A stretch of 64,000 nt of DNA from the NCBI RefSeq assembly GCF_022458985.1, contig NC_061774.1, positions 20,616,697-20,680,696 of the forward strand, given 5' to 3'. Every line of letters begins with the position of its first letter. Within the stretch, counting starts at the first letter, position 1. Under the pieces are notes generated by a model. That model saw only the letters and a program-made list of their open reading frames with translations, did no database searches and was not told the origin of the DNA. Source of the DNA: Mugil cephalus (Eukaryota; Chordata; Actinopteri; Mugiliformes; Mugilidae). The position numbers and the translations under genes were made by a program. Positions 18,101 through 62,283 of this stretch are shown here, one piece after another.

Positions 18101-20815
18101 TGCCTATTTTTCCCTCCCTCTCATATGTAATCGTGTCGACAACATCATGTTACACATTTAAATGCGCCAAATCTCCTCTTTTCCATGGATGCAGAGCAGC
18201 TCCTGAGTCTCACAGTCTTGTCAGTGTGCTGCCATGACCGATGCCGTGCCATATCCCTATACAAGCTGTATATAAAAACAGCCGTGCATGCGCAGTTCAC
18301 TTCAAGATCCCCCAGTATGTAGGGCTAACGTAGGGCTAATTCACCTTCACATTTGATTTGTTTGATTGAAAAAAATGGACAAAAATCTCAGCCCTTCAGA
18401 GATCGGCCTCTTATGGGAGTAGACCAAAACTTTGCTCTGTTTTTGAGCTGCTCACGGCCCTGGAGCTTCTACCATGACACAGTCTGACAGGCCGTCCAGT
18501 GATAAAATCAGAATGTATGTAACACTATGTACACTCTGCCTCATACAACCACAGAGAACGCAAACTATTCCTTTGAAGTTGAAACACCACAGCAAAACCT
18601 TATCTATTGTGCAGCAAATTATTTTTGTAGAAGTTAGACGAGTGGAACTGCTCATTCACAACCTCATATCACAAACAAACTCCTCAGTTTAAGGTGAATG
18701 TATTTATCTTCTTGAAGGAATACTGCACAATTAAATTTGAACCTTGGTTGAAAAAGCTGTGCCGTCTTCTTTGAATCTTAAAAGTGCTTTTTGGATAATC
18801 AAAAAATAATAATGCTATGAGGAAGTGGAAAGTTATTTAACATTTCCAGCCAACTGGACACAGTGTACATGTACAGTTTTCAAACTGACAGACTTATGTA
18901 CGTTGGTCACAAACAAATTTTCAAAACAGGATTTTAGTTTTTCAGCAACCGGCTTTTCTTTCTAAACTTTTATTGCTCCCACCGGACCACTGCGTAGGCC
19001 ATCCACAATTGTCCTCCGGCTGACTCACTTTCAGAAAGGCTGATTTCTCCGGTTCCGTCGACGTGTTGGGAAGTTAGGTCGAAAAAAACATCTGTGACAT
19101 CTGTAAAGGCCAAGTGTGGCGTTTACCGCTCTGCGTTTAAAATACAGCCGTGATTCAGCTTCCTGCCGGTCCAGAAGAGCGTAGTCACCGGCTGTTCTGA
19201 ACACTGCGTGCGCTGTGTAGCTTTATAGTAAAAAAACCTCGTGTGAACAGGAAGTGGATGATATTTGTTGTAATGCTGAAGTGGGCAGAAGACAACCTGT
19301 GACGTGGGTTGCACAATAGCAGGATGGTGTGAGACACAGCGGCTGAACTTAAACTATGTCAACACAACATACTTTTTATTTAAAATGTGCGGGCACCCTC
19401 TTGATATTTGTCCTAATCCAGCCTTCCTGACTCACTCACCCTTTATTTACCTGTTATTTTACCTGTCAGTCAAACTGATATCTGGTATGTGACTAAATGC
19501 CACAGTGATGATGGTGTAACAGCAAAAAAAAAAAAAGAGTCAAACCTTCCCAAGTATTTATTTCCCCTTAATGGCTGAATATTGTGTAATAATCTTGACA
19601 ATAACAACTTGAAAGAGTTGAGTGTGTTGACTCAAGTTACTGGATTACACAACATATGAGTGACTTTAAGTCCTTACTGGATACAATAAGTCATGCCCTT
19701 TATGACCGGCAACCATGATCAGATGGTCGAGTGGCTCATCGGTGGATTGATTTAAGGTTTTTAACCGCAATGCAGAAAGACATCTGGCAGTAAAAGAATA
19801 TATCTCTGATCTCTCGCTTGCCCCTTAGTGATGGGCTCTACAATCATGAAATTCGTCACAACTCCAGATTAAATGTGGGACCTTGATAACATGATGCATT
19901 TTAGGGTTAGTTTTAATTCTGTTGTTTGTTCCTAGTACCGAAATGTGAATGAAATGTGCAGCCTGGACTATTTCCGTAAGACAAAGTTGTCGTTTTTCCA
20001 TTGTCACTGTCAGGCAGGAGATTGGATAAAACATTTGACTATTTTATGATTTGATTTCTGTATGAGCGCAGAATCCTGATTACTGATCACTGTGGATGGT
20101 AAATTAGTGTCATCTCTAAGCTGCATTGCACCGACCCTATGGCACGCTGATGCTCAAAAATTTTTGTGCGACGCTATAAAAGCACCTCTACTGGTCTCAT
20201 CTATACTGTTGACACAAGAGACAAATTTGCATAACTGTGCAACTTTTGTTCTCCTGATGCAAAACTGAGCAATTCTACGTTCCACATTTTTTTCCAATTC
20301 TTTTTGGAATTCATGGACAATAGACCACATTTATATAAAATTATGTGACATTGGGGAAAAAAAAGAAAAAGAAAAGGCCATATTTGACCTGGAGGACACC
20401 AGGAAGGTTAAAAACAACAAAGAATGTATCATTTTCCTCATGCTAAAGAATATAAGCCTTATATCTGAAATAAGAATTAATTCCTTGATTATTTACAGCA
20501 AACTGTGATTTGTATTTTGAGTATTGTGTATTGTGTCCAGCACCAGGTCTATTATTTGACTGCAGATAATCCAGCTTCAAAATAAACCGGTGCCTAAGTC
20601 GTCGTGTGTAGATTTTTTCCTGTAAGACTTAATGTCGTGGATATGACGCATAGTCTGATGACTTCAGTCTGGGTCCTCCATGTTGACCTAGTAAGGGTCA
20701 ACATATGACTATACAATGCCTCCCTGTGAGGAACCAACTGGCCTGTGGTCATTGCTGATACTAATGTATAATTTTCACACAGTATTATATACTTATATAT
20801 TTATATGATTATATG
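15198..20815 (+). other. ap1ar 3' UTR and gene-poor spacer
   Basis: About 5.6 kb with no supported gene. An AATAAA-like signal (ACAATAAATCC near 15570) may end the ap1ar message. Two related blocks near 16015-16085 and 16440-16515 both carry AAACCCTCAAAAGCACAAAA, a local duplication or two copies of a repeat. TATCCCTTTCACATTGAAAA near 17978-17997 followed by GC-rich text to about 18300 looks like another short repeat. The remainder shows nothing I can name. Confidence 0.5.
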
Positions 20816-20883
<68 letters not shown>

Positions 20884-20884
20884 G
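20816..20884. repeat. (TCTA)n microsatellite
   Basis: About 16 copies of TCTA, preceded by ATATTTATATG-type sequence. Same unit as the array at 1208-1290. Confidence 0.97.
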
Positions 20885-22029
20885 TCTGCATTAAAACACA
20901 CTATAAACAAACACGCACAAATTCATTCATTCTGCTTTGTTGTCGTTTTTATTTACATTCCCACTTTATTTATCTTCATTCTCATCTAACTACATCTATG
21001 CTTTTTAATTATTGTCTGTATATTAAAGTTACTATGGGAAATACTCCGTGCATAATTTTGCTTGAATACAGTAAACTATCTTCTTTAATGACGTAGTAGG
21101 AGGTAGGATGGAGAAGAAAAAAAAAAAGACTGGAACAGAAGTGATGAAAAGCTGTGTAGAAAATGTTATGTGCAGTAGTTAGTTAGATCATATTGTGTGT
21201 GTAATTTTATGGATCGCTTACAACTCACAAAACTGAGATCATTTTAGTCAAGGGACAGATGGTTGTGGTTTTCAGGTGGCCATGTTGCCTTATTTAAAAT
21301 TGGTTTAATTATGCATGATGGATAAACTACACATGTTGGAGGTTTGGTCTGGTCTCTTTAACAGTAACATATACATGAGATTTGAAAAAAAAAGCCCACT
21401 AGTGGTGGGACATGGACACTTCATTTCATTTCAGGTCCAGAGACTGAATGAAGAATCACGCACGTCCAACATTATCTGGTCCGACAGCAGCGGCTCGTCT
21501 GTGAGGAGTGGGTGTGGAGTACTTCGCCATCGGTTTGATTAATTAAAGTTAAAAGGATTAGCAACACGGGGCCTGTTGAGAAAAAAGGGGAAAAAAAAAA
21601 AAAAAGTCTCCAACAACTGACTACAAAGGACAACAATACACAACAGACCACAGAGCTCCAGACTGAGTGGAGCCAGCAACTTGTGAGACGTCCCAGAGCC
21701 GCAGCACGACTACAGTAAGACTCCCAACTTCAAACACCGAAACATTAAAAAAAATCAATAAGAGGGGCATCTTTCGTGTTTATTTTTCCTACGGGTTCAC
21801 ATCGGAGCTAATGTTTGACGCTATCTTCGTGATAATCCAGCCGGAAATGTCAAAGATGTAAGGGAGGGGGGAGAAAAAAGTTTGTACACTCGGAACACTC
21901 AGACCTACCTACGCGCTAGGAAAGGGAATATTTATTTATTATTTCATTTTTTAAATATAGCTTTTGAATGTCATAACTTGAGAGCGGGGTATTAAATTGG
22001 GCTTACGTGAAATGGTAACGTAGTGTGTT

Positions 22030-50299: not shown

Positions 50300-50600
50300 A
50301 TAAATAAATAAGTACGAAAAATAAGGGAAATTTGAGACCCAGATTTACTTTCTTTTACATGATTGAGTCAGGCTTTCGTCAAAACATGAGGCTACTCCAA
50401 ACCTCATTATGTACACAGCTCCACTTTCTCTTTCTGCATATTGCTTAAGTTAGATTTCTTTAATAACTACACGGAACAAACTGCTCATTGAACAAAAAGC
50501 GAAAGAAGCTGTTTTAAGACTTGACTGAAATTTAAATTTAAATGCAAAATGTGATTGTGCTTAAGACTTTTTTAAGACTTTGCGGAAACCCCGAAAAAGA
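50300..50600 (+). mobile_element. Second, shorter copy of the TTTAAGAC element
   Basis: Shares GTACGAAAAATAAGGGAAAT plus GAGACCCAGATTTA with 48757-48795. Ends CTTAAGACTTTTTTAAGACT followed by TTGCGGAAACCCCGA, the inverted complement of the TCGGGGTTTCTGCAGG left end at 48470. The two therefore define the terminal inverted repeats of one family. Confidence 0.55.
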
Positions 50601-51440
50601 AAAGAAGAACTGACCACAAGAAATCACACGACTGACATCACACTAGTGAAATTCTGGGCAAAATCTGTCAAAACCTTCTGACTTCTGATATTGAGATATA
50701 AAATGAGAATCTTTTTTCCCTATTATACCAAACAAAGTCAGTATTCATAAAACACCTGTAGCAAAATGAAAATAAAAAATGCCAGATCACAAATTGAAGC
50801 ATTTAAGGCAAATATTATATTATATATTGTAATAAATTTGTCAATATACATGAGGACCTTCTACAACCATTGTAATTAATGACGATGTAGCAGCAGCCGA
50901 CTAAAAATAATATACACATACATCCTCCCCTATATTTAGGTCATAGACTATGACATTATTATATAATAAGACACACAACTAACCATTATGCTGGATTATC
51001 ATCAAGAAAACAACTGGTTGTATTAATATACCCGTAACATACAGTAACATACACATCCTCTGTGGGTTTTCGACTGATATAAACATTAGAGAAATAAGTC
51101 TAGGTCGTGTAATGTAATACATATTAAACTGTAAAGACTGTGTTTTCCCGTGTAGCCTATAATTCAGTGACCTTTGAGACTCTGTAGTCCGGACTGCCAT
51201 CAACAAACCTCTAGAACATAAACAACCGGCTGTGTTGCGTTCACGGACGTCAACAACAGCTAAATTAAACGCGACTAACTTTGCCAAGTACTTGTAGTAT
51301 CCCCTCGTAGTCGTTTTGTTTTTAATTCACACGTCGATGTGATTAAATTTCTCATCTGTCAGTAGTTATTTAAAGATAATAACAACAGACCTGAAGTCGG
51401 AGAGAGCTCCGGGATATCCAGCCGAGGCGACGACTAAGAG
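50600..51440 (-). other. gpr137: gpr137 upstream region
   Basis: AT-rich sequence with no frame of note. A slightly GC-rich patch at about 51390-51435 (GGAGAGAGCTCCGGGATATC) could be a noncoding first exon or promoter of gpr137, since the coding start at 50153 sits in an exon with no clear promoter. Not proven. Confidence 0.3.
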
Positions 51441-51444
51441 ATGT

Positions 51445-53117
51445 GCTGTGAGCAAAAGAGCCGATGTTTGGTAGTGAATCAGAAGAGTCGATTACCAGCG
51501 AGGGAGAGCCGGCTCCCCACGACTATTCTATCTGTCTCTAACCTACCCTTTAGTCATATTAATTGTTGCTACAGTATTAAAAGCTCTACCCACCATTGTT
51601 TTTACTTTTTCTAAAAGAAAATTGTTGCACTGCACCTTTGGAAAAATAGCTTTGACCCATACATAAATAATAATAATACAAAAAAAATGAAGCTTTGTCT
51701 TGACATTTGTTCTGGAGGTGCAACAAATACACAATTAGACTTGTTTTTTTATATAGAGTGCTTATCCTATTGTTTTTATAGTTTCATTACTTTAGCCAGG
51801 TGCTACCGCCCAAAATTTTTATTACGTTCTCACATAATTACAATAAAGGATTCTTGATTCCCATGCCATCTGAAATACTACTGTATATTTATATTGTAGA
51901 TTTCGTAGACACTGAGATTTTATTATCTATTTTAAATTTATACACCTGACCTCAAGCTGCTAATAAGCACAAGTTGCAACTTGTGTGCAGTAACGATAAA
52001 GTTCTTCTTCTTCTCTCTACTAAATAAATTCTTCTGTATGCTATACAATTGCTATACATTGTTATACATTATACATTGTTATATACATACATCCCAAACA
52101 CTGTGCCGTGGCATATTAGTGTGTCGTGAGAGAGAGTCAGATGGGCTGCACTAAATTATCCAATTTTACTAATCAGGTCATAAAATTATTTTTTATTTAC
52201 TGTAAATAATTAATGTTCTTTCACCTGTGTTATACCATTGTCACATAGTGAGAGGCAGAACAATTAAATCATCTTCCACTAGATGGCAGAATTTAGATAA
52301 TTAACCTGTTTATCTATCTGCTGCCATTCAAACAATTGAATAAGTCATGATGCTTGGAGTGAAACAGTGGTGATAGTGATGGATAAATACTGTAAAAGAA
52401 AAAGTACTCAATCCGAACTGGGTCCTGGAGAAAATTCTGAGCCAGATGAAGATCCTAGCCTGAGAAGTGGTCAGAAGAAAGCAAAAAATGTGAGCGCAAG
52501 ACAAAACAATGAAAGTTAGCTTTCTTTCAGAATTACTTTTACCGGGGGAACCAACCGAGCTGACTCTGTTATGCTTGGTGTGTGGTGAACCATGGCTCGA
52601 AGCAAACTTAAACACCATCTCCAAATAATAGATGATGGGTACACGATCATTATTTCATTGTGCTTTTTGTGGCATTTTTATTTGGTGGTGTGTCATGGGA
52701 TTTTTCTAATGTAAAATATAATATGTGTCATGGCTCAAGAAAGGTTGGGAAACACTGTATTATATAACAGATAAACATTGAAGTTGAGGAAGAAATTTAC
52801 TGCAGTTATTGCAAAATGCAATGTATCTACTATGACATTTATTTATATGGATGTTTATGTAAAATAAATGTTGTTACAAACTGAGGAATAGTTAAAAAGT
52901 GGTAGGAATTAAAAAAAGTGCGTACCTCTTCCTACTCTTTTTTTTTTCGAAGAGAAGGGCTGTGTTTCTTTTGATTTATATTTTTTTTGTCCAAATAGTT
53001 GTTCGAAATAAAATTGATTCATAAATAAAGAGCCGTTCGATGGGTGAAAGAAACGACTCCATTTGGGGAGAGCCGAGGTAAAAGAGTCGACTCTCAGGAA
53101 AGAGCCGTACGTCCCAT
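51445..53117. mobile_element. Nested hAT-like elements between gpr137 and the PLD-family gene
   Basis: The outer ends, AAAAGAGCCGATGTTTGG...GAGAGCCGGCTCCCC (51453-51520) and GAGCCGAGGTAAAAGAGTCG...AAAGAGCCGTACGTCCCATC (53080-53117), are rich in GAGCCG / GAGTCGA words in opposite sense, as in some nonautonomous hAT families. Inside lies a second hAT element (52085-52766). Confidence 0.45.
52085..52766 (+). mobile_element. hAT (ZBED5-like) transposon remnant with broken transposase start
   Basis: The right end reads GAAAGGTTGGGAAACACTG, the inverted complement of the usual CAGTGTTTCCCAACCTTT start of Charlie-like hAT elements. The left end CCCAAACACTGTGCCGTGGC near 52092 is a decayed partner. 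From about 52380 the plus strand reads MDKYCKRKSTQSEPG..., like the N-terminus of the ZBED5/FAM200 group of hAT transposases, then a zinc-finger-like VCGE / SKLKHHLQ portion. Frame shifts and stops break it. Confidence 0.65.
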
Positions 53118-53144
53118 CATTAAAATGGCGACGGTTTGTTTCCG

Positions 53145-53480
53145 CATTGTGTGGCCTGCGTAACGTCTGATGGGCGCGGCCACCGTTTGGATTCCAACCG
53201 CCAATCAGCGAGTCCAGGAAACCGCGGTCTCTTCAATTCGTTGTTTACTTGTCCATTGAACGCATGATTCAAAACCTCATTAAACGCACGGGTTGTTTAT
53301 ACTGTACATCACCGCGAATCGTGGTTTTAATGTTTTTTTTTATTATTATTATTATTTTTTGGGTTTTGTCTATATCACAGCTCTACATTAGCCGTGGGCC
53401 ACAGCAGCAGCAGCAGACAAACGTGTCCGTGTTATTGCTGTTTACGTTGTTAGCCTGGTGTCATTAAAACTCCTCCAAAG
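53145..53480 (+). promoter_or_regulatory. Promoter/5' UTR region of the PLD-family gene
   Basis: CpG-rich patch (GATGGGCGCGGCCACCG) with a CCAAT box in CCGCCAATCAGCG at about 53199-53211. The start codon follows at 53481 in the context CCAAAGATGCC. Between them a T-rich block and a short CAG run (about 53403-53418) are seen. The start site is not determined. Confidence 0.5.
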
Positions 53481-56400
53481 ATGCCGATGCTTCTGCGGTC
53501 CCGAAGATCCCTTGCACCCGGCCGGGCCCCCGAGGTGGAGTTACCGGAGCCTGCGAAACGGAGGAGGTCGATGCGCCTGCGGCGGAGAGTCGTGTACGAG
53601 GTGGGTATTTTTTTTTTCTTTCCTTTTTTTTTTTGTATTACTCAGACTTTCCGCCTCCTCTTCCTCCACTCCACGGTCGGCCACGTAGCTACACAACTAG
53701 CTGCAGCGACATTAGCGGACTACCAAGAGAAATATACTCCAGGAGCTAGGAGTGATCTACAAATTAACTCCAAAAACATTTTTTAAATAGCATTTAAACC
53801 TATTTAGTGCACGCTTGAGGTAACCGGGTAGCATAAAGTTAGCTAGTTGGGAGCTAACGGAAATACTGCACCGTGAGCGTGGACCTCAACACAAAAAGTT
53901 GTTTATCGGTACCTGGTTACTGCAGCATGGTGAGTTTTTACTAGTCTAATGCTGTTTTATATCAGGGAAATTTAGTCTGGTAGCTTCATCACATAGAATA
54001 TGTTAACAATAACAGAACAGTAGTGATAATATTAATAAGAATGTCTTATGCTATGGAAAACTCGCTCTTTCTGCACACACATAATTGACTCTTATGCTAT
54101 TAAGCTAACAATATATGATACTTTAGTCTTATATAATTATAGTCTGAGAGTTTGCTCAAGGTCCTTGTCTCTGCCACCTCTGCTCATCTTTATTTCCCTA
54201 TTGTATAATTTGGATGGGGAAGATGCGTTGCGGACTGCACACAAGCAGCAGCTTCATGCTTTATTACACTGCGGCTTCACTCTTGTTAACTGTGGTTATT
54301 ACCGATCCGGTCCTGTCAGGACTCCGATGAGTCAGACTCCGAGAGCGTCCAGAGACCAGCGATGGAGAGACACCTGAGTCCGCCGGCCGAGCTGCAGGAG
54401 GAGGCTGCTGGGGATGCAGACTTGACGGTAGGATCTATAATTCACTCTCTCAGACCACAACAAACCCGGCAAAGAAGTGATGCTGTGAGGCGTCGGCAGT
54501 GCAGCAGCAGCATGGGATCGATACCAGGAAGTGTTGCCAGGCGAATGCGGAAGTGTCTTAATCTTATTTTGCCTCCTCGCGCAGAACAAATCTGATTAAA
54601 ATATTAAACCTGCTTGTTTACCAGTGCACAGCAGAACCCAAATGATCCCGAAGATTTGAGTTAAAAGTTAAATTCACATGAAGTAAATATTAATAATTCC
54701 CCCAAATAGACTTCGACTTAGCTTTAGATTGACTTGATCCACAAGGGAAATTTCTTGGTAACTTAGTTGCACAAAAGAAACACTTCTGAGGACCACAAGT
54801 AAAAAGAAAGATAAAGTAAAATAAAATAAAAAGTGTGACTCAGGCTTTTTTGCATGTTCTCCCTGTGTCTCCATTGATTCCCTCCGGTACTCCAGCTTCC
54901 TCCCACCACCCAAAGACATGCTCGTTAGGTTGATTGGTTATTCTAAATTGACTGTAGGTGGGAGTGTGAATGGTTGTTTGTCTCTGTGTTAAGCCTGCGA
55001 TCGGCTGGCGACCTGTCCAGGGTGTACACCGCCTTTCTATCCCGATGACAACTGGGATAGGCTCCAGCAACTGAAATAAAAATAACACTTTACAAGAATT
55101 AGCATATGAAGAAATGTAGTAAAAATAGTTATCGCTGTTTATTGGTTGTATTTCAGCATCAGTTAACACTAAGTTCAACCTATAATTTAAATGTTGTCTT
55201 ATTGTTTCAGTTTCAAAATCCTGGTCTCACTCAAAATAAGCAAAGCTTTAACATTTTGATTTACACTTTAATCTTTACAATATAAGGCATTTACAGTTTT
55301 ACACAATATTAATTGCCCAATTAACCAGAATGCACAAATGTAAACAAACTAATCACTCATGACATGGCACCACTGTAACAGTAGTAACATATTTACACTT
55401 TTGTACGTGTACTTGTTCCCTAAACCATGTGCTGTTATTTTTAACATTAGCCCCAGAAACTAGTTTATCAACTACATGCTAATTCAGTTTTATTAGACTT
55501 AGACAGACTTTAATGATCCATGAGGGAAATAACTCGATAGCTTCGTTGCACATTAAAGTAAACACTCATGAAAACCACAAGATAAGATAAAATAAAAATC
55601 AGATAATTCAATTAATTTGCATAGCAGTTAGCAAACTTTACATAGTAAAATACATTCATTCTAGTTCCGTCTGATTCCCCACTCTGCATTTTGTGTCACG
55701 GCTTCTTATTGCAACTCAGAGTCTTTATAACCATAGTTAACTCTACCAGTTTTATCCAACAAAAAGCTTAGAACAAAGTTGCTGACACAGAAGTCTCACT
55801 CGATTGGCTACTCTGAACCACAAGACCAGTATGACTCATTATGTTATATAAAAAAAAACACAATAGTAAAACTTATATAAAGTCAATTATGAAATGCAAT
55901 GACACGTCAGTGGATTGATGTGGCAGCTGCAGAAATGTGTCGGTCACCCCCGCTCAGTGTATTTATGAAAATGATTGTGGTTATAACCTGCATCAGAATG
56001 TGAAGTTGAATGATGCCGTAGTCGTGGTAACGCCTTTATTAACTATGCTGAGGTGCACCAGAGCTAATTTGAATAGGTGTGACTACTGTAGTCATTTCTC
56101 TGTCCGAGAAGTCTCTCAAGGTAATATACAGCATTATTATTTTGTTCTTTTGACAAAAAAAAAAAAAAAAGCAGGATAACTGAATGATTTTAAGCTGGAA
56201 GATGTTTGTGTTTGTTGAACTGCTAGCCTCATAGATAGTCAAATGAGTCGTGTGCAGTGTGAGTGGAAATCACGCTTCTAAAACGATTGTTATGGCAAAG
56301 GTTTTTGTCTTTCTCAGGATTTGCAAGATTGTAGTGTTGTGCTGGACCGCCTCCAGGTCGAAGACAAGGCTCTAAGCAAAGAACTCGAGGAGAAAGACGA

Positions 56401-59400
56401 CATGAAGCGCAGAAGTGGGAAATCCATCTCCCGAATCCCTACTTTCCACAAACGACCCACCAACGTCGGCCAGACACCGGAGCCGCCCGTCCCCAAGAAA
56501 GACAGCCCCGTCCAAGCGGCTCCGCCTCCCGAGAAAGCTGAGAGCGGTGGTGTGGAGGCTCCGAGGCTTAAACCGCTGGAAGCCAGAGAAACCACCCTCC
56601 CCCACCCGTCGGTCCACGTCCCCAAACTTGGCTTTGAACCTCCCGCTGTGTTCGGCAGCACAGAACAAGCTGCTGCTGCTGCTGCGGATGACGCCTCCAT
56701 AATTGCTTCTCCGTGGAGCTGGAGTTTATCCGAGTCTCTGCTGCAGTCCCCTTCTATGACTGCAAGCCCCAGGCCTGCCCTCAGACCGAAGCAAGACAAG
56801 AGCAGAACCGCAGAAACTGAAGCTGCAACCACACCAGATGGCCTCCTTCCAAGCGTGGGTTCCCTCGGCCAGAAGCCGCTGGAGGACGCAGCGGAGAAGT
56901 GCGGCGCTAGCATTAAAGGTAGGTTTACCCCCACTGCCTCTGGAGACAATGACAAGTCTGCAGAGGCCTTCCCCACAGCTGTAGTCAGCCAGGTGGAAGA
57001 TATTATGGACGAAGAACCACCGTGGGAGAAGGAGCCCGTGAACGTGGCTGGATTAAAGGGGAGTGTTCCTTCATCAGATGCTGAATCTGAAGCAGATTTG
57101 CCGGAAGAGAAATCTGAGGGCAGTGTTTTATGGGACGCTACGGAGATCCGCGAACCACCAATAAACCGGTCAGAGTTTCCAGATGTGGCAGAGAAAACAG
57201 CTAATGTTGATGAATCTACTTCCACTGTAGCGCCAGAGAAGCAAGCCGAGGCGAGCTCGAGCAGTCCCACCAAGGTGAGCGACACGTTTCTATTCGTGCT
57301 TCGGAATTCAGCGCGGACCGAAGCTCTGTTTGCGAACAAAACTCATTCGTACACGCCCCTTGTGTTACAGGGGTCGGGATGCTGCAGTTTTGCCCTCCTT
57401 GTGTTCCTGCCCACCACCCTGCTGCTTCTCGGAGGCTTCGGTCAGCACGTCTGGCACTACGGGCTTCCCACGTCTGTGGCTCAGCTTACGGCTCAGCTCG
57501 AGCTGCACTGGCTGGAGGGAGTTGGTTTAGTACCAGAGCCTTGTAGCACAGACTGTCGGTGAGTAGTGTCACCAAGTGTATCTTTGGCGAGGTTAGTCTA
57601 GAAGTGTTTGTTATATTCACCTCATCAAAACAAATAATTAACAGCGTTTTGTGGAAATACCTTGTTGGGTGTGGTGTATAAAGTCCTGTTTAGACGTAAG
57701 ATTCACAATGAGATTAATAGAGTTTTGCGTCAGACAGGTTTAGGTTTAGGGTTTGGTTCAAGCTTGTTGTTGTTGTTGTTGTTGGACAAGCTGTTGTTTT
57801 GTTTTGTCTTTCCTTGAATATTTTGAACCATAACTTGAATTCTCCTCTCTGTTATTCAGAGTGCATCTGGTGGAGAGCATCCCCGTCGGCCTCTACGAGT
57901 CTTCCCCTCGGCCCAGAAAGAGCATCGCAGACAGCTGGCTGCATCTCCTGCACAATGCCAACAGTTCTGTCCACATCGCGGCTTTCTACTTCACACTGCG
58001 GGGCAGCGATTTGGAGTTTGCGGACTCCTCCGACTCTCAGGTCAGGACGGTCTTACGGACACGTCTCACAGTATATATATATTACATCAAGTCCTTATAC
58101 CCAGAGTTTTCAGACTCTGTTTGTGCTCCTCAGGGAAGAAAGGTCTTTGAGCATCTGAAGCAGCTCGAATCCAAAGGTGTAAAACTCCAAATTGCCGTCA
58201 ACTCGCCCCAGACCTCGACTCAAGACACGGCGGCGCTGGCTTCTACAGGTGAGGGTGTGTTTGTATTTCAGGAACAAGACGTTGTGGAGTCGCAGGGAAT
58301 CTATGGATTAATTAATTAATGCCTCGGTCTGTGTTTTGCAGGCGCAGAGGTCAGGGAGGTGGACCTCAAGGCTGTAACTGGAGGCATCGTCCACACCAAG
58401 CTGTGGGTGGTTGACCAGAAGCACTTCTACGTGGGCAGTGCTAACATGGACTGGCGCTCTCTGAGCCAGGTACAGACAAAAAACCTTTAAGTCCTTTAAT
58501 GGAGTGTGCAGGTTTTAAACACCTAGAAATAGACATGTGAGCCGTGCTGCTTCCAGGACACAATTAAAACCCTCTGCCGTGCGCCTGCTCTCTTCTCTTT
58601 ATGACCCAAGGTGAAGGAGGTGGGTCTGTCAGTGGAGAACTGCAGCTGCCTGGCTCAGGACGCCGATCGGATATTCGGCGTGTACTGGAGCCTCAGTGGT
58701 TCGAACAACGGCTCCCTCCCACCGTACTGGCCTGCTCGACTCTCCGCCCTGTCCAGCTCCGAGAACCCCCTGCGTCTGAAGTTCAACGGCGTCCCCGCTC
58801 GGGTCTACCTTTCCGTAAGTTCGACCCTGACTCGGTCTCCTTCCTTCAGGAGGAATGTTTTAGAAATGGGCTTTTGTAATAAGGTTTTTTTTTTTTTTAG
58901 AATTGATCACTATGCACTATAAAGACAGCGTATAGATAATCATAATGAGTACTTAATGTCAACTTAATTGACAAAGATGTATGACATTCATTCTCAACAA
59001 GCGCTTAACCTTTGATTAAGAAAACGTAATTGAAAAATATTTCTGTTGCCTTTCCTTAGACCGAGTAGTAATATACTGAATATATACAGTATATGTGAGA
59101 GGCTCCTCTTCCTCTTACACTCATCTTGTATCTCGTCTCCTGCAGAGCGCCCCTCCTCAGATCTCAGCCCGCGGCCGCTCCGACGACCTCTCCACCATCT
59201 TGTCCGTCATCAACGACGCCCAGAAGTTCGTTTACATCTCCGTCATGGACTACCTTCCGACGTCTGAGTTCACAGAGCCGCTCAGGTAGACTCCTCTCGC
59301 AAAGATCCACCTACAGTATATTTACGGGAGAGTCATTTAATGTGAAGTGTCTGACTGCATGAACGCTCAAAGTCAGTTACACATCACGTTAGATCCAGGT

Positions 59401-61412
59401 TATTACAGCTGTTGTGGCTCTGTAAGATCATCAGTTGCTACGTTTCCATTACCTCTAGAAAATGCACAAAACCTAAATATCGCAATAAAAACTGGTAATG
59501 GAACATTTAGAAAAACCTCTAAAACACTTTTACGCTCTCATGAGGTGGTTTTTCAGACGCATCGATGTAAAAGTTTTCCTCAAAAGTGCAATAGAAACAC
59601 TTTTTTTTTGCATTTCCCCGTCACCGGAGATGACGCAGAGGGTCATGTGACCAGTTCATTTGACGTCCATCTTCCTCAAAGTGTAGTCTCGCGTGACGAC
59701 AATGTAAGAGAATTATGGGATAACGCAATACGAGACTTTATCAGAGGTACAGCTCATTCAAAAAACTCCTTTCAATAGAAACACATACAAAGTACTTTAA
59801 TGAAATTTCAAAAATATCCCTTTTATTTTACGAAAAACTGTAATGGAAACGCAGCTATTGAAACTGCTGCGACATGTGGCTGATAAACTTCTCAAATTAA
59901 CATAAATAGTCAGCTTGGATGTTCTTAGCGTTCATAGTAACAATGTGTTGAGAGTGAGGATTAAACTATGTATCAGTGAAAATACAGAAAAAAAAAGTCC
60001 TCTGCTTCTTATCTGCTTACGAGACATTTAGACAGTAACGGTTGTTGTGCTCTCAGGTTGTGGCCGGCCATCGACTCGGTCCTTCGTTCTGCAGCGTGCA
60101 CCAGGGGGGTGCAGGTCAGGCTGATGGTCAGCTGCTGGCAGCACTCGCCCGCCTCCATGTTCGTCTTCCTGCAGTCCCTGCAGGTCCTCAACAGACACCC
60201 TCTGAAATGTGACATTGACGTGGTACGTTGGGAGCTTTTGTTTCTTTGGCGGCTTGAAACACATTTAACGCACTGATGCGATGTTGCCTTTTTTTTTTAT
60301 TTATTTATTTTTTTTTTATTGTTGCTCCGTTTAGAAAGTCTTTACGGTGCCTTCGACAGCAGAGCAGATGAAGATCCCTTTTGCACGGGTCAACCACGCC
60401 AAGTACATGGTTACAGACAGAGTGGTCTATATAGGTAAGCTGCACTTCATGAACTGATTTATCCATTTAAATATCTCCCTGCCACCATTGGTATTTACCA
60501 GTAATTTGGCATATTATATTAATTAATTAATTACACTTTTAAAATGAAAATAAAAAGACAGACAGAAAGAAAAATGCCAGTTTACTTTCAAGTGGTTGAT
60601 TTAACCTCCTGAGACCTGAGGTTTTACTTGGTATGCATTTTTAATTTCTCCATTTCTCTTGGTGTTGGATTAGTAGAACCTAAAAACTATGAAAACCCGG
60701 AAGTAGTTTTTGGAAAAAAATTGTGTCCTCATGTGTGCACACAAGGATTATTTTACTCAGTATTATGATAAAGTCACCAATATGTAACAAAATAGAAAAC
60801 TATTAATTTTCATGTCTGAATGTTGCTGTGTACAAGCAGAATTTGAAATAATGAAGTCCCAATGTCCTCAATCGAGTACATGCTAATTAGCAAAGTTATA
60901 GCTTCTTACTATTAGAATTTGTGTCATATTAAACTAGAAAAGTTAATAAGCATAAATATCTTACACTATCATGTATTTACACCAGTATCTAGTTATGAAG
61001 ATAAAACTTTAAATGAAGCAGAATAAGCTGCGACGAACCTAAAACTTAACGTCCCCATATGAGGACGAAGGGTCTCAGGAGGTTACATTAAGAACAGTTT
61101 CCTTTCTTGCAGAAAAATGCATCTACAGCAAAATTTAAGCAACACGTGTGTCTGTGACCATGACTAGAAACGTCACCGCGTCTCGTTCTTGTGGTGTTTC
61201 CGTTCCCAGGGACGTCCAACTGGTCAGAGAACTACTTCACCCAGACGGCCGGCGTGGGCTTGGTGGTGAACCAGACGGGCTCCGCGGTGGAACAGGGCCA
61301 GCAGACTCTGCAGAACCAAGCGGAGGACCTCTTCCTCAGAGACTGGAGGTCCACGTACGCCAGCACTCTCCCCGTGGACGACGCGGACGTCTGTCCTCAC
61401 AGACCACACTAA
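53481..61412 (+). CDS. PLD3/PLD4-like phospholipase D-family protein with a long N-terminal extension
   Basis: Twelve coding exons: 53481-53600, 54320-54427, 56318-57274, 57371-57558, 57860-58040, 58134-58248, 58342-58469, 58611-58814, 59146-59285, 60057-60222, 60335-60434 and 61210-61412, about 869 aa. From residue 396 it follows PLD3/PLD4: one membrane segment ([19 protein letters not shown], about 399-417), the luminal start [15 protein letters not shown], a first HKD motif HTKLWVVD at about His574 with GSANMDWRS, and a second HAKYMVTD at about His790 with [10 protein letters not shown]. Both keep His, Lys and Asp. PLD3 and PLD4 are type II lysosomal/ER proteins, known as 5'-3' exonucleases; catalytic activity is inferred. 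Residues 1-395 are unusual: basic ([17 protein letters not shown]), then acidic ([10 protein letters not shown]), then a 957-nt Pro/Ser/Glu-rich exon with no fold I recognise. It could be a fish relative sometimes called PLD7; not certain. Confidence 0.88.
54700..54790 (+). repeat. LINE 3'-tail fragment, PLD-gene intron 2
   Basis: GACTTCGACTTAGC...GATTGACTTGATCCACAAGG then GAAATTTCTTGGTAAC...TTGCACAAAAGAAACAC matches the family seen at 9827-9900. Another fragment follows at 55495-55560. Confidence 0.55.
54842..55075 (-). repeat. Teleost interspersed repeat, inverted copy
   Basis: TGCATGTTCTCCCTGTGTCT is the reverse complement of the GGGAGAACATGCA core of the 4130-4342 copy. The element continues through GGTTATTCTAAATTGACTGT, GTGAATGGTTGTTTGTCTCT, GGCGACCTGTCCAGGGTGTA and ends GGGATAGGCTCCAGCAAC. 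This is the fullest copy in the window. Confidence 0.8.
55495..55560 (+). repeat. LINE 3'-tail fragment, PLD-gene intron 2
   Basis: TTAGACAGACTTTAATGATC then CATGAGGGAAATAACTCGAT and TTGCACATTAAAGTAAACAC. Same family as 9827-9900 and 54700-54790, all in plus orientation. Confidence 0.55.
57275..57370 (+). other. 96-base intron that is in frame and stop-free (PLD-family gene)
   Basis: Canonical GTGAGC donor and TTACAG acceptor bound an intron of exactly 32 codons without a stop. If it is kept, the frame passes unbroken from the extension into the membrane segment, adding [20 protein letters not shown] and 12 more residues. Splicing is my preferred model because the sites are good; retention would still give a full-length protein. 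Confidence 0.6.
59437..59855. mobile_element. GCTGCGTTTCCATTAC-ended MITE, complete copy (PLD-gene intron 9)
   Basis: The ends GCTACGTTTCCATTAC (59437-59452) and GTAATGGAAACGCAGC (59840-59855) are inverted repeats matching at 15 of 16 positions. A partial copy sits at 25712-26045 in smad5. A 143-codon open frame across it seems accidental, since no homolog comes to mind and it is mostly repeat. Target duplication is not clear. Confidence 0.75.
60605..61082. mobile_element. piggyBac-like MITE (PLD-gene intron 11)
   Basis: Ends CCTCCTGAGACC (60605-60616) and GGTCTCAGGAGG (61071-61082) are perfect 12-base inverted repeats. The left flank is TTAA (60601-60604), the right flank TTAC, one base from the TTAA duplication expected of piggyBac-type insertion. 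The class assignment rests on TTAA and the CC start; there is no transposase. Confidence 0.65.
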
Positions 61413-62283
61413 AGTTTAGCCTCTCAATAAAGCGCGCTGCATTGTAGATGAGCGTCTCGCTACTTCCCGTCACTTGAACTTAATTTGACCGATGTGGAAC
61501 CAGCTTGCACTTATATCGCTGTTAATGACCAGCTGCCTTTTTTTCTGTATATAATTGCATTTTCATATTATTTTTATACTCTTTGCTGCCCTATACACAT
61601 AGGTCAAGGTGCAGGGGAACTCGCTTTGTACAATTTATTTCATGCCTGGAGCATTTTGTATATTTTCCTCCGAAAATGTAGAAGCTTTAAAAGGCTCCTG
61701 CGGGAAGTAAGACCCTTCCAAGGTTGTGCTCACACCATGGCTATGTTTACACTGCTGAAGCTATCAGCTGCTAATGATTGTATGATTGTGTGTAATTAAA
61801 CTACTTGATCTCATGTCGGTCCTGCAGGACCCACTTGCCGCTGTCAGCTGTCTCGTAGGGTTTGAATGTGTACGACTGAACAAACGCGCAAACTCGCTTG
61901 GTTAAAGGTTTTGTTTGGATTTGAAAGAAACATTCCCCGTCTGCTTTTAGATTTACTGTATCGTCTGTTACTGTATCATTCCCGTCGCTGATCCTTCACC
62001 GGGATTATCTGTTTGTTGTGTGTATGGGACCCTCCTCCTGTCGTCAGCGGACGCGTTGTGTCATGTTAAACTGTTGCACTGTTGAGAAAAAAAACACCTC
62101 CTCCCTGTCGATGGACCAAGAATCATTCATCTCTTACAAACTGAGCAGTTCACGTGCCAATAAAACCTGCTCCCTACCTGGTGACGTCTGAGAGCTTCTT
62201 GGGTACTAACTGTTCACTCTCTCATAACGCATATAATAATAGTAATGATTTGAGTCCTGAACTGAATCACGTTATTTTGTTAT
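61413..62283 (+). other. PLD-family gene 3' UTR and spacer
   Basis: AATAAA at 61426-61431, only 14 bases after the stop, and another at 62159-62164 (CCAATAAAACC). The first would give an unusually short 3' UTR; the second a UTR of about 770 bases. No further gene is seen. Confidence 0.6.

Follow-up and report, generated by a model that had tools for sequence, protein, structure and literature searches.

PLD3 and PLD4, which are lysosomal 5' exonucleases, are the described enzymes closest to the gene reported here. In PMC10783504, PLD3 is described as a protein of 490 residues in which the tail and the membrane segment together take up 60 residues; the tail is short, its ubiquitination serves sorting, and when PLD3 is deficient, Toll-like receptors that sense nucleic acids become chronically activated. 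Loss-of-function of PLD4 leads to lupus, according to PMC12611768. In the present study, we analyzed a stretch of 64,000 nucleotides from Mugil cephalus (assembly GCF_022458985.1, contig NC_061774.1, positions 20,616,697 to 20,680,696 of the forward strand), which is called the window below and is numbered from its first letter. The window contains a gene with the layout of PLD3 and PLD4, in which a lumenal domain bearing two HKD motifs comes after the membrane segment. A short cytosolic tail is typical of, but does not define, enzymes of this type. In the mullet gene, by contrast, 395 codons precede exon 4, and the product carries 395 residues before its membrane segment. The gene appears to encode a membrane-anchored, nuclease-like enzyme with a long, floppy tail in the cell interior.

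Sequence reading and exon joining gave a coding region of 12 exons and 869 codons at 53481-61412 on the + strand, in which all junctions were GT-AG and the phases were compatible throughout. The 869-residue product consisted of a 395-residue extension encoded by exons 1-3 and of 474 membrane and lumenal residues (396-869), and the stop codon was located at 61410-61412. An initial annotation, made from the sequence letters, had placed exons of 40, 36 and 319 codons ahead of exon 4; all four were found again with the same boundaries, and the junctions after exons 1, 2 and 3 were in phase 0. The lengths of the first three exons (120, 108 and 957 bases) were each a multiple of three. Exon 1 started at the first ATG downstream of an in-frame TAG at 53451-53453. 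The CpG observed/expected ratio was 1.40, 1.19 and 1.03 in three 300-base segments of 52901-53800, compared with 0.27, 0.41 and 0.16 in 52001-52900, and the promoter-like stretch at exon 1 was located where a promoter would be expected. Splice sites were ranked against all AG or GT sites of the window using splice-site matrices. The donor of exon 1 ranked in the top 0.6% of GT sites, the acceptor and donor of exon 2 in the top 7.0% and 3.0%, respectively, and those of exon 3 in the top 1.7% of AG sites and the top 0.1% of GT sites. The features of the locus are as follows.

52901 to 53480, + strand: promoter-like CpG-rich stretch upstream of exon 1

53481 to 53600, + strand: first coding exon, 40 codons, encoding the basic N-terminus, in which KRRR and RR...KRRR form clusters

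54320 to 54427, + strand: second coding exon, 36 codons, encoding an acidic stretch; symmetrical cassette (0-0)

56318 to 57274, + strand: coding exon 3, 319 codons, Pro/Ser/Glu-rich, predicted to be disordered, symmetrical 0-0 cassette

56321 to 56413, + strand: predicted helix, protein residues 78-108 (exon residues 2-32), moderately confident, with block pLDDT values of 71, 85, 85 and 64

56417 to 56455, + strand: SxIP-type (EB1-binding-like) site, protein residues 110-122, motif at residue 114

57275 to 57370, + strand: intron 3, 96 bases, open in the coding frame for 32 codons

57371 to 57558, + strand: exon 4, encoding the single membrane segment and the first part of the lumenal domain

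57860 to 61412, + strand: exons 5-12 and the introns between them, encoding the lumenal enzyme of PLD3/PLD4 type, in which HKD1 reads HTKLWVVD and HKD2 reads HAKYMVTD

61426 to 61431, + strand: AATAAA poly(A) signal shortly 3' of the stop codon

Because the 96 bases of intron 3 are a multiple of three and open, its retention would be harmless to the frame, adding 32 residues and not truncating the protein.

By homology, the last 474 residues are a PLD3/PLD4-type enzyme. Pfam detected PLDc_3 (6.4e-36), PLDc_2 and PLDc in residues 396-869. A phmmer search of the PDB matched 14 distinct sequences, of which the best seven were PLD3 and the next two PLD4. The best PLD3 match had an E value of 1e-128 and 433 bits over query residues 45-462 of 474, and the two PLD4 matches had E values of 8e-115 and 9e-115, with 387 bits for the better one. 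In the alignment of the lumenal part with the PLD3 chain 8s86_A, 202 of 400 aligned residues were identical. The PLD3 numbering was anchored on H201, and the residue roles were those given in PMC10783504. Two H-x-K-x4-D/E motifs were present, H574-K576-D581 and H790-K792-D797, which aligned with H201/K203/D208 and H416/K418/E423 of PLD3. The residues H201, K203, D208, N218, D220, H416 and K418 were kept, and E423 was replaced by D, the canonical HKD letter. The glycan site N236 was also kept. Differences from PLD3 were observed at three of the five glycan positions (N97, N132 and N387), which were not Asn; N284 was Asn but lacked the sequon, and Cys300 was replaced by Ser. A single hydrophobic peak was observed at residues 401-425, with a 19-residue Kyte-Doolittle maximum of 2.05, and the next highest block reached 1.03. 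When bacterial and archaeal genome contigs were searched for relatives of the enzyme part, 28 stretches fitted a pattern and none was confirmed. The proposal of the initial annotation that a PLD3/PLD4-type enzyme continues in frame from a long N-terminal extension through the membrane segment agreed with the PLD3 match, both HKD motifs and the joined frame.

The coding character of the extension was evaluated by periodicity and codon choice. The period-3 power of exon 3 was 10.1. None of 300 shuffles exceeded 3.6 and, among 36 overlapping segments of equal length that are presumed to be noncoding, the highest value was 3.8, whereas the enzyme part gave 11.2 over its first 957 bases. It is unlikely that exon 3 is a chance open frame. 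The periodicity points to exon 3 having been shaped as a series of codons, and because this measure reveals neither strand nor reading frame, the strand is left undecided by it. Exons 1 and 2 together had a coding-like synonymous-codon score of 0.22-0.29 nats per codon. Exons 3 and 4 and the intron between them were covered by a single open frame at 56282-57562 (426 codons), and the extension would therefore be linked to the membrane segment even in a transcript left unspliced. No in-frame ATG was found in 57275-57470, which spans intron 3 and the membrane segment, and exon 4 contained no Met.

The extension was basic in exon 1, acidic in exon 2 and then Pro/Ser/Glu-rich in exon 3, as had been described before this analysis, and the disorder expected of it was largely supported by prediction. 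It was classified as disordered by charge-hydropathy (Uversky) and scored high on TOP-IDP. The single-sequence AlphaFold model of exon 3 had a mean pLDDT of 51.8, although a low pLDDT from one sequence is only a weak sign of disorder. Besides the predicted helix at the start of exon 3, a second, low-confidence helix was predicted at exon 3 residues 185-200. Within the window, a tblastn search with the extension (E up to 1) returned its own three exons and no second source. Viral contigs were searched for relatives of exon 3, and four stretches fitted a pattern, none of which was confirmed. The longest acid-free stretch of the extension had 26 residues, seven of them basic. SxIP sites were defined as [ST]x[IL]P with a basic residue in the preceding four, no acidic residue around and a disordered context, the flank being four residues before and five after. 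Three [ST]x[IL]P sites occurred in the protein, and only one of them, at residue 114 within the acid-free stretch, agreed with the criteria set out in PMC4834103. A qualifying site arose in 0.8% (strict) or 4.4% (loose) of 20000 shuffled extensions, and a slightly different strict pattern arose in 1.0% of 5000 shuffles.

The identity of the gene was assessed from its neighbours. Reading frames of ap1ar, smad5, syvn1 and gpr137 were located upstream of the PLD gene at 14877-50180. Their domains included Pfam AP1AR (5.1e-44), MH1 (5.9e-43) and TPR_SYVN1_N (1.8e-27), and synoviolin was matched in the PDB (1.8e-31). The MH1-bearing neighbour was named by eye and is presumably smad5; the neighbour that we take to be gpr137 was likewise recognised by eye, with the Pfam family THH1_TOM1-3 only below threshold (E 0.0013). 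The 16 candidate genes reported for the pompano Trachinotus ovatus include gpr137, pld7, syvn1, smad5 and ap1ar, as given in a review (PMC12903247). For the croaker Larimichthys polyactis, gpr137 and "pld3" are among the candidates on one chromosome in PMC12066304. Four of the 15 other genes of the pompano list were found in the window, and both lists consist of gene names, with no gene order, protein or tail. Because the neighbours are common to the list that holds pld7, it probably corresponds to the gene that goes by pld7, or at times pld3, in fish. The suggestion that it represents an undescribed subfamily was too strong, since its neighbours are listed together with pld7 for pompano and, in the case of gpr137, with pld3 for croaker, in candidate lists and not maps. 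In human, GPR137 and SYVN1 lie at 11q13, PLD3 at 19q13 and PLD4 at 14q32, presumably in one duplication set. On these positions, the mullet gene would be consistent with a third PLD3/PLD4-type duplicate that was lost in mammals. Among the open-access literature matches listed, the name pld7 in fish was met only in PMC12903247, the matching text of PMC11144346 and PMC10706248 mentions pld4 only, and a long tail on pld7 or a PLD3 relative was not described; protein databases may already contain a long pld7 model. Elsewhere in the window, tetranucleotide-type repeats were observed at 1091-1396 and 20809-21096, which translate as YLSIYLSI....

From the gene structure, coding periodicity, homology and motif match, we infer an enzyme activity, a topology, a tail function and a splicing switch. 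The best explanation, to which we give about an even chance, is a cytosol-facing tethering or positioning tail on a pld7-type enzyme. The product would cross the membrane once in type II orientation, and its catalytic domain with the two HKD motifs would face the lumen of the secretory/endolysosomal system. The 395-residue, mostly disordered tail would lie on the cytosolic side, provided that the protein shares the type II topology of PLD3. Because the active-site residues are intact, the lumenal domain most likely acts like PLD3/PLD4, as a 5'-end exonuclease or in a related phosphodiester transfer. HKD enzymes use phosphohistidine chemistry. The tail most likely serves as a positioning and regulatory module, in which the basic N-terminus is followed by acidic residues, by a short helix and then by a positively charged, acid-free segment with the SxIP site. 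This site could bind EB proteins and tie the membrane of the enzyme to growing microtubules, by analogy with STIM1, a protein of the endoplasmic reticulum. STIM1 tethers the endoplasmic reticulum membrane to microtubules. It is listed as an SxIP protein in PMC4834103. The SxIP site beside the predicted helix is the most specific testable feature of the tail, and the motif suggests a plus-end tether; if the enzyme dimerises, there would be two such sites per dimer. Since exons 2 and 3 are in-frame, symmetrical cassettes, splicing could toggle between a product with the long tail and one of about PLD3 size; skipping both exons would give 514 residues with the frame intact.

Several results weigh against the tethering explanation or against the gene model beneath it. 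Among the splice sites of the gene, the lowest matrix scores belonged to two acceptors (exons 2 and 10) and three donors (exons 7, 8 and 9). Read in its own frame, exon 3 had a synonymous-codon score close to zero (-0.03 to -0.04), which was exceeded in three of the other five frames, with 9, 16 and 7 stops. The fraction of G or C at third codon positions (GC3) was 0.55 in exon 3 compared with 0.76 in the enzyme part. An antisense open frame of 342 codons (56314-57342, - strand) overlies exon 3, and an AATAAA at 57160-57165 inside exon 3 might permit a truncated, tail-only transcript. Five of the nine homodimer-interface residues of PLD3 were kept (R340, R350, F377, S380 and L384), and dimerisation of the mullet enzyme is uncertain because the other four (H339, F341, Y354 and E355) were changed. 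A single putative SxIP site within 395 disordered residues is weak evidence for a tether. The points on codon choice, the antisense frame and the internal AATAAA, together with the result that residues 1-395 matched no Pfam family and no PDB chain (each at E up to 1), also speak for the extension being a separate gene or a gene-prediction artefact. We consider this very improbable, because of the periodicity of exon 3, the absence of an ATG from exon 4, which needs a start codon from upstream, and the open frame that exons 3 and 4 share even unspliced; in addition, no stop closes the extension ahead of the membrane segment, and the donor of exon 3 is strong. An antisense gene over exon 3 was rejected, as the antisense synonymous score (-0.12 to -0.21) was below that of the sense frame. 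The synonymous score nevertheless decides little on the strand, because three frames interrupted by stops outscore the sense frame, and the sense strand is favoured by the splice sites and the frame common with exon 4. Exon 3 contained no Tyr codon, to which we largely attribute the open antisense frame. Within exon 3, GC3 dropped from 0.60-0.68 in the first 80 codons to 0.40-0.46 in the last 79, and AATAAA/ATTAAA hexamers were frequent locally (16 in 53601-62000).

The main rival to a cytosolic tether, which we regard as a tentative possibility, is that the tail is an inner-nuclear-membrane targeting signal, with a nuclear localization signal (NLS) at its tip, a disordered linker and a membrane segment as in yeast Heh1/Heh2, placing the enzyme in the nuclear-envelope lumen. 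Residues 6-36 were basic, with KRRR at 26-29 and RR(8-9)...KRRR, and 366 residues, predicted by the two scales and the single-sequence model to be disordered save for one or two helices, lie between KRRR and the one membrane segment. According to PMC4695851, an NLS and a disordered linker were required and sufficient for inner-membrane accumulation of Heh reporters in yeast, and the Heh2 signal was functional in HEK293T cells; the same text reports that LBR, SUN2 and LAP2beta in mammalian cells fit diffusion-retention and not active import. A monopartite pattern equal to the KRRR one arose, however, in 31% of 5000 shuffles, the density of 12 Lys/Arg in 36 residues was matched in 3.5% of 20000, and a bipartite NLS with a spacer of 10-12 residues had no match in the extension, one match appearing only when spacers up to 20 were allowed. 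The nucleus-facing extension raised by the initial annotation is possible in view of KRRR, but as worded it went beyond what these shuffles support. The cluster would also suit a cleaved tail, in which intramembrane cleavage after release of the lumenal enzyme frees the tail for signalling in the nucleus, like an SPPL2-type intracellular domain. SPPL2 proteases process type II stubs. PLD3 itself has type II topology, and cleavage in acidic compartments releases its lumenal portion, as stated in PMC10783504; for the mullet protein this reading is pure inference, and we rate it as rather improbable. It is unlikely, too, that the usual protein is short and the long form rare or tissue-specific, whether because exons 2-3 are skipped, with exon 1 spliced directly onto exon 4 for a product of 514 residues, or because transcripts use a different first exon. 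The phase-0 junctions and lengths of exons 1-3 would permit this, and 514 residues is near the 490 of PLD3. On the other hand, the exon 3 acceptor outscored 6 of the 10 other acceptors of the model and its donor 9 of the 10 other donors, the periodicity of exon 3 suggests selection as protein, and the promoter-like CpG stretch sits at exon 1. Ten ATG-to-donor stretches with a donor score of at least 2 were found in 50501-57300. Seven used the donors of exons 1-3, one was inside exon 3 in a different frame, and two, at 52379-52489 and 52592-52687 upstream of exon 1, could in principle act as short first exons. None resembled the PLD3 tail. The stretch 52379-52489 has the short reading frame MDKYCKRKSTQSELGPGEN..., which is reminiscent of the start of a hAT/ZBED-type transposon protein.

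A relative of PLD3 and PLD4 with a tail nearly as large as the enzyme would be a natural experiment on how tail sequence sets enzyme location. The tail may steer where the enzyme goes, and it could explain the role of fish pld7, which we met in print only as a name. A bolder version, which we consider speculative and quite unlikely, is that fish have retained a third vertebrate enzyme of the PLD3/PLD4 type, which gained exons 2-3 as an optional cassette of 355 residues. This cassette would have turned a lysosomal-type nuclease into a microtubule-tethered or nuclear-envelope-facing one, and alternative splicing would choose the place at which the enzyme, nucleic-acid-degrading or else lipid-remodelling, encounters its substrate.

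Collectively, the tail could be compared with two known systems. The order of a basic cluster, a long disordered linker and a membrane segment is that of Heh1/Heh2, a likeness of layout; the mullet protein differs in that a PLD enzyme domain follows the membrane segment, and the quality of its NLS is uncertain. Compared by motif alone, the tail resembles the SxIP plus-end proteins, with STIM1 as the membrane example, in that its SxIP site lies in a basic, acid-free stretch predicted to be disordered.

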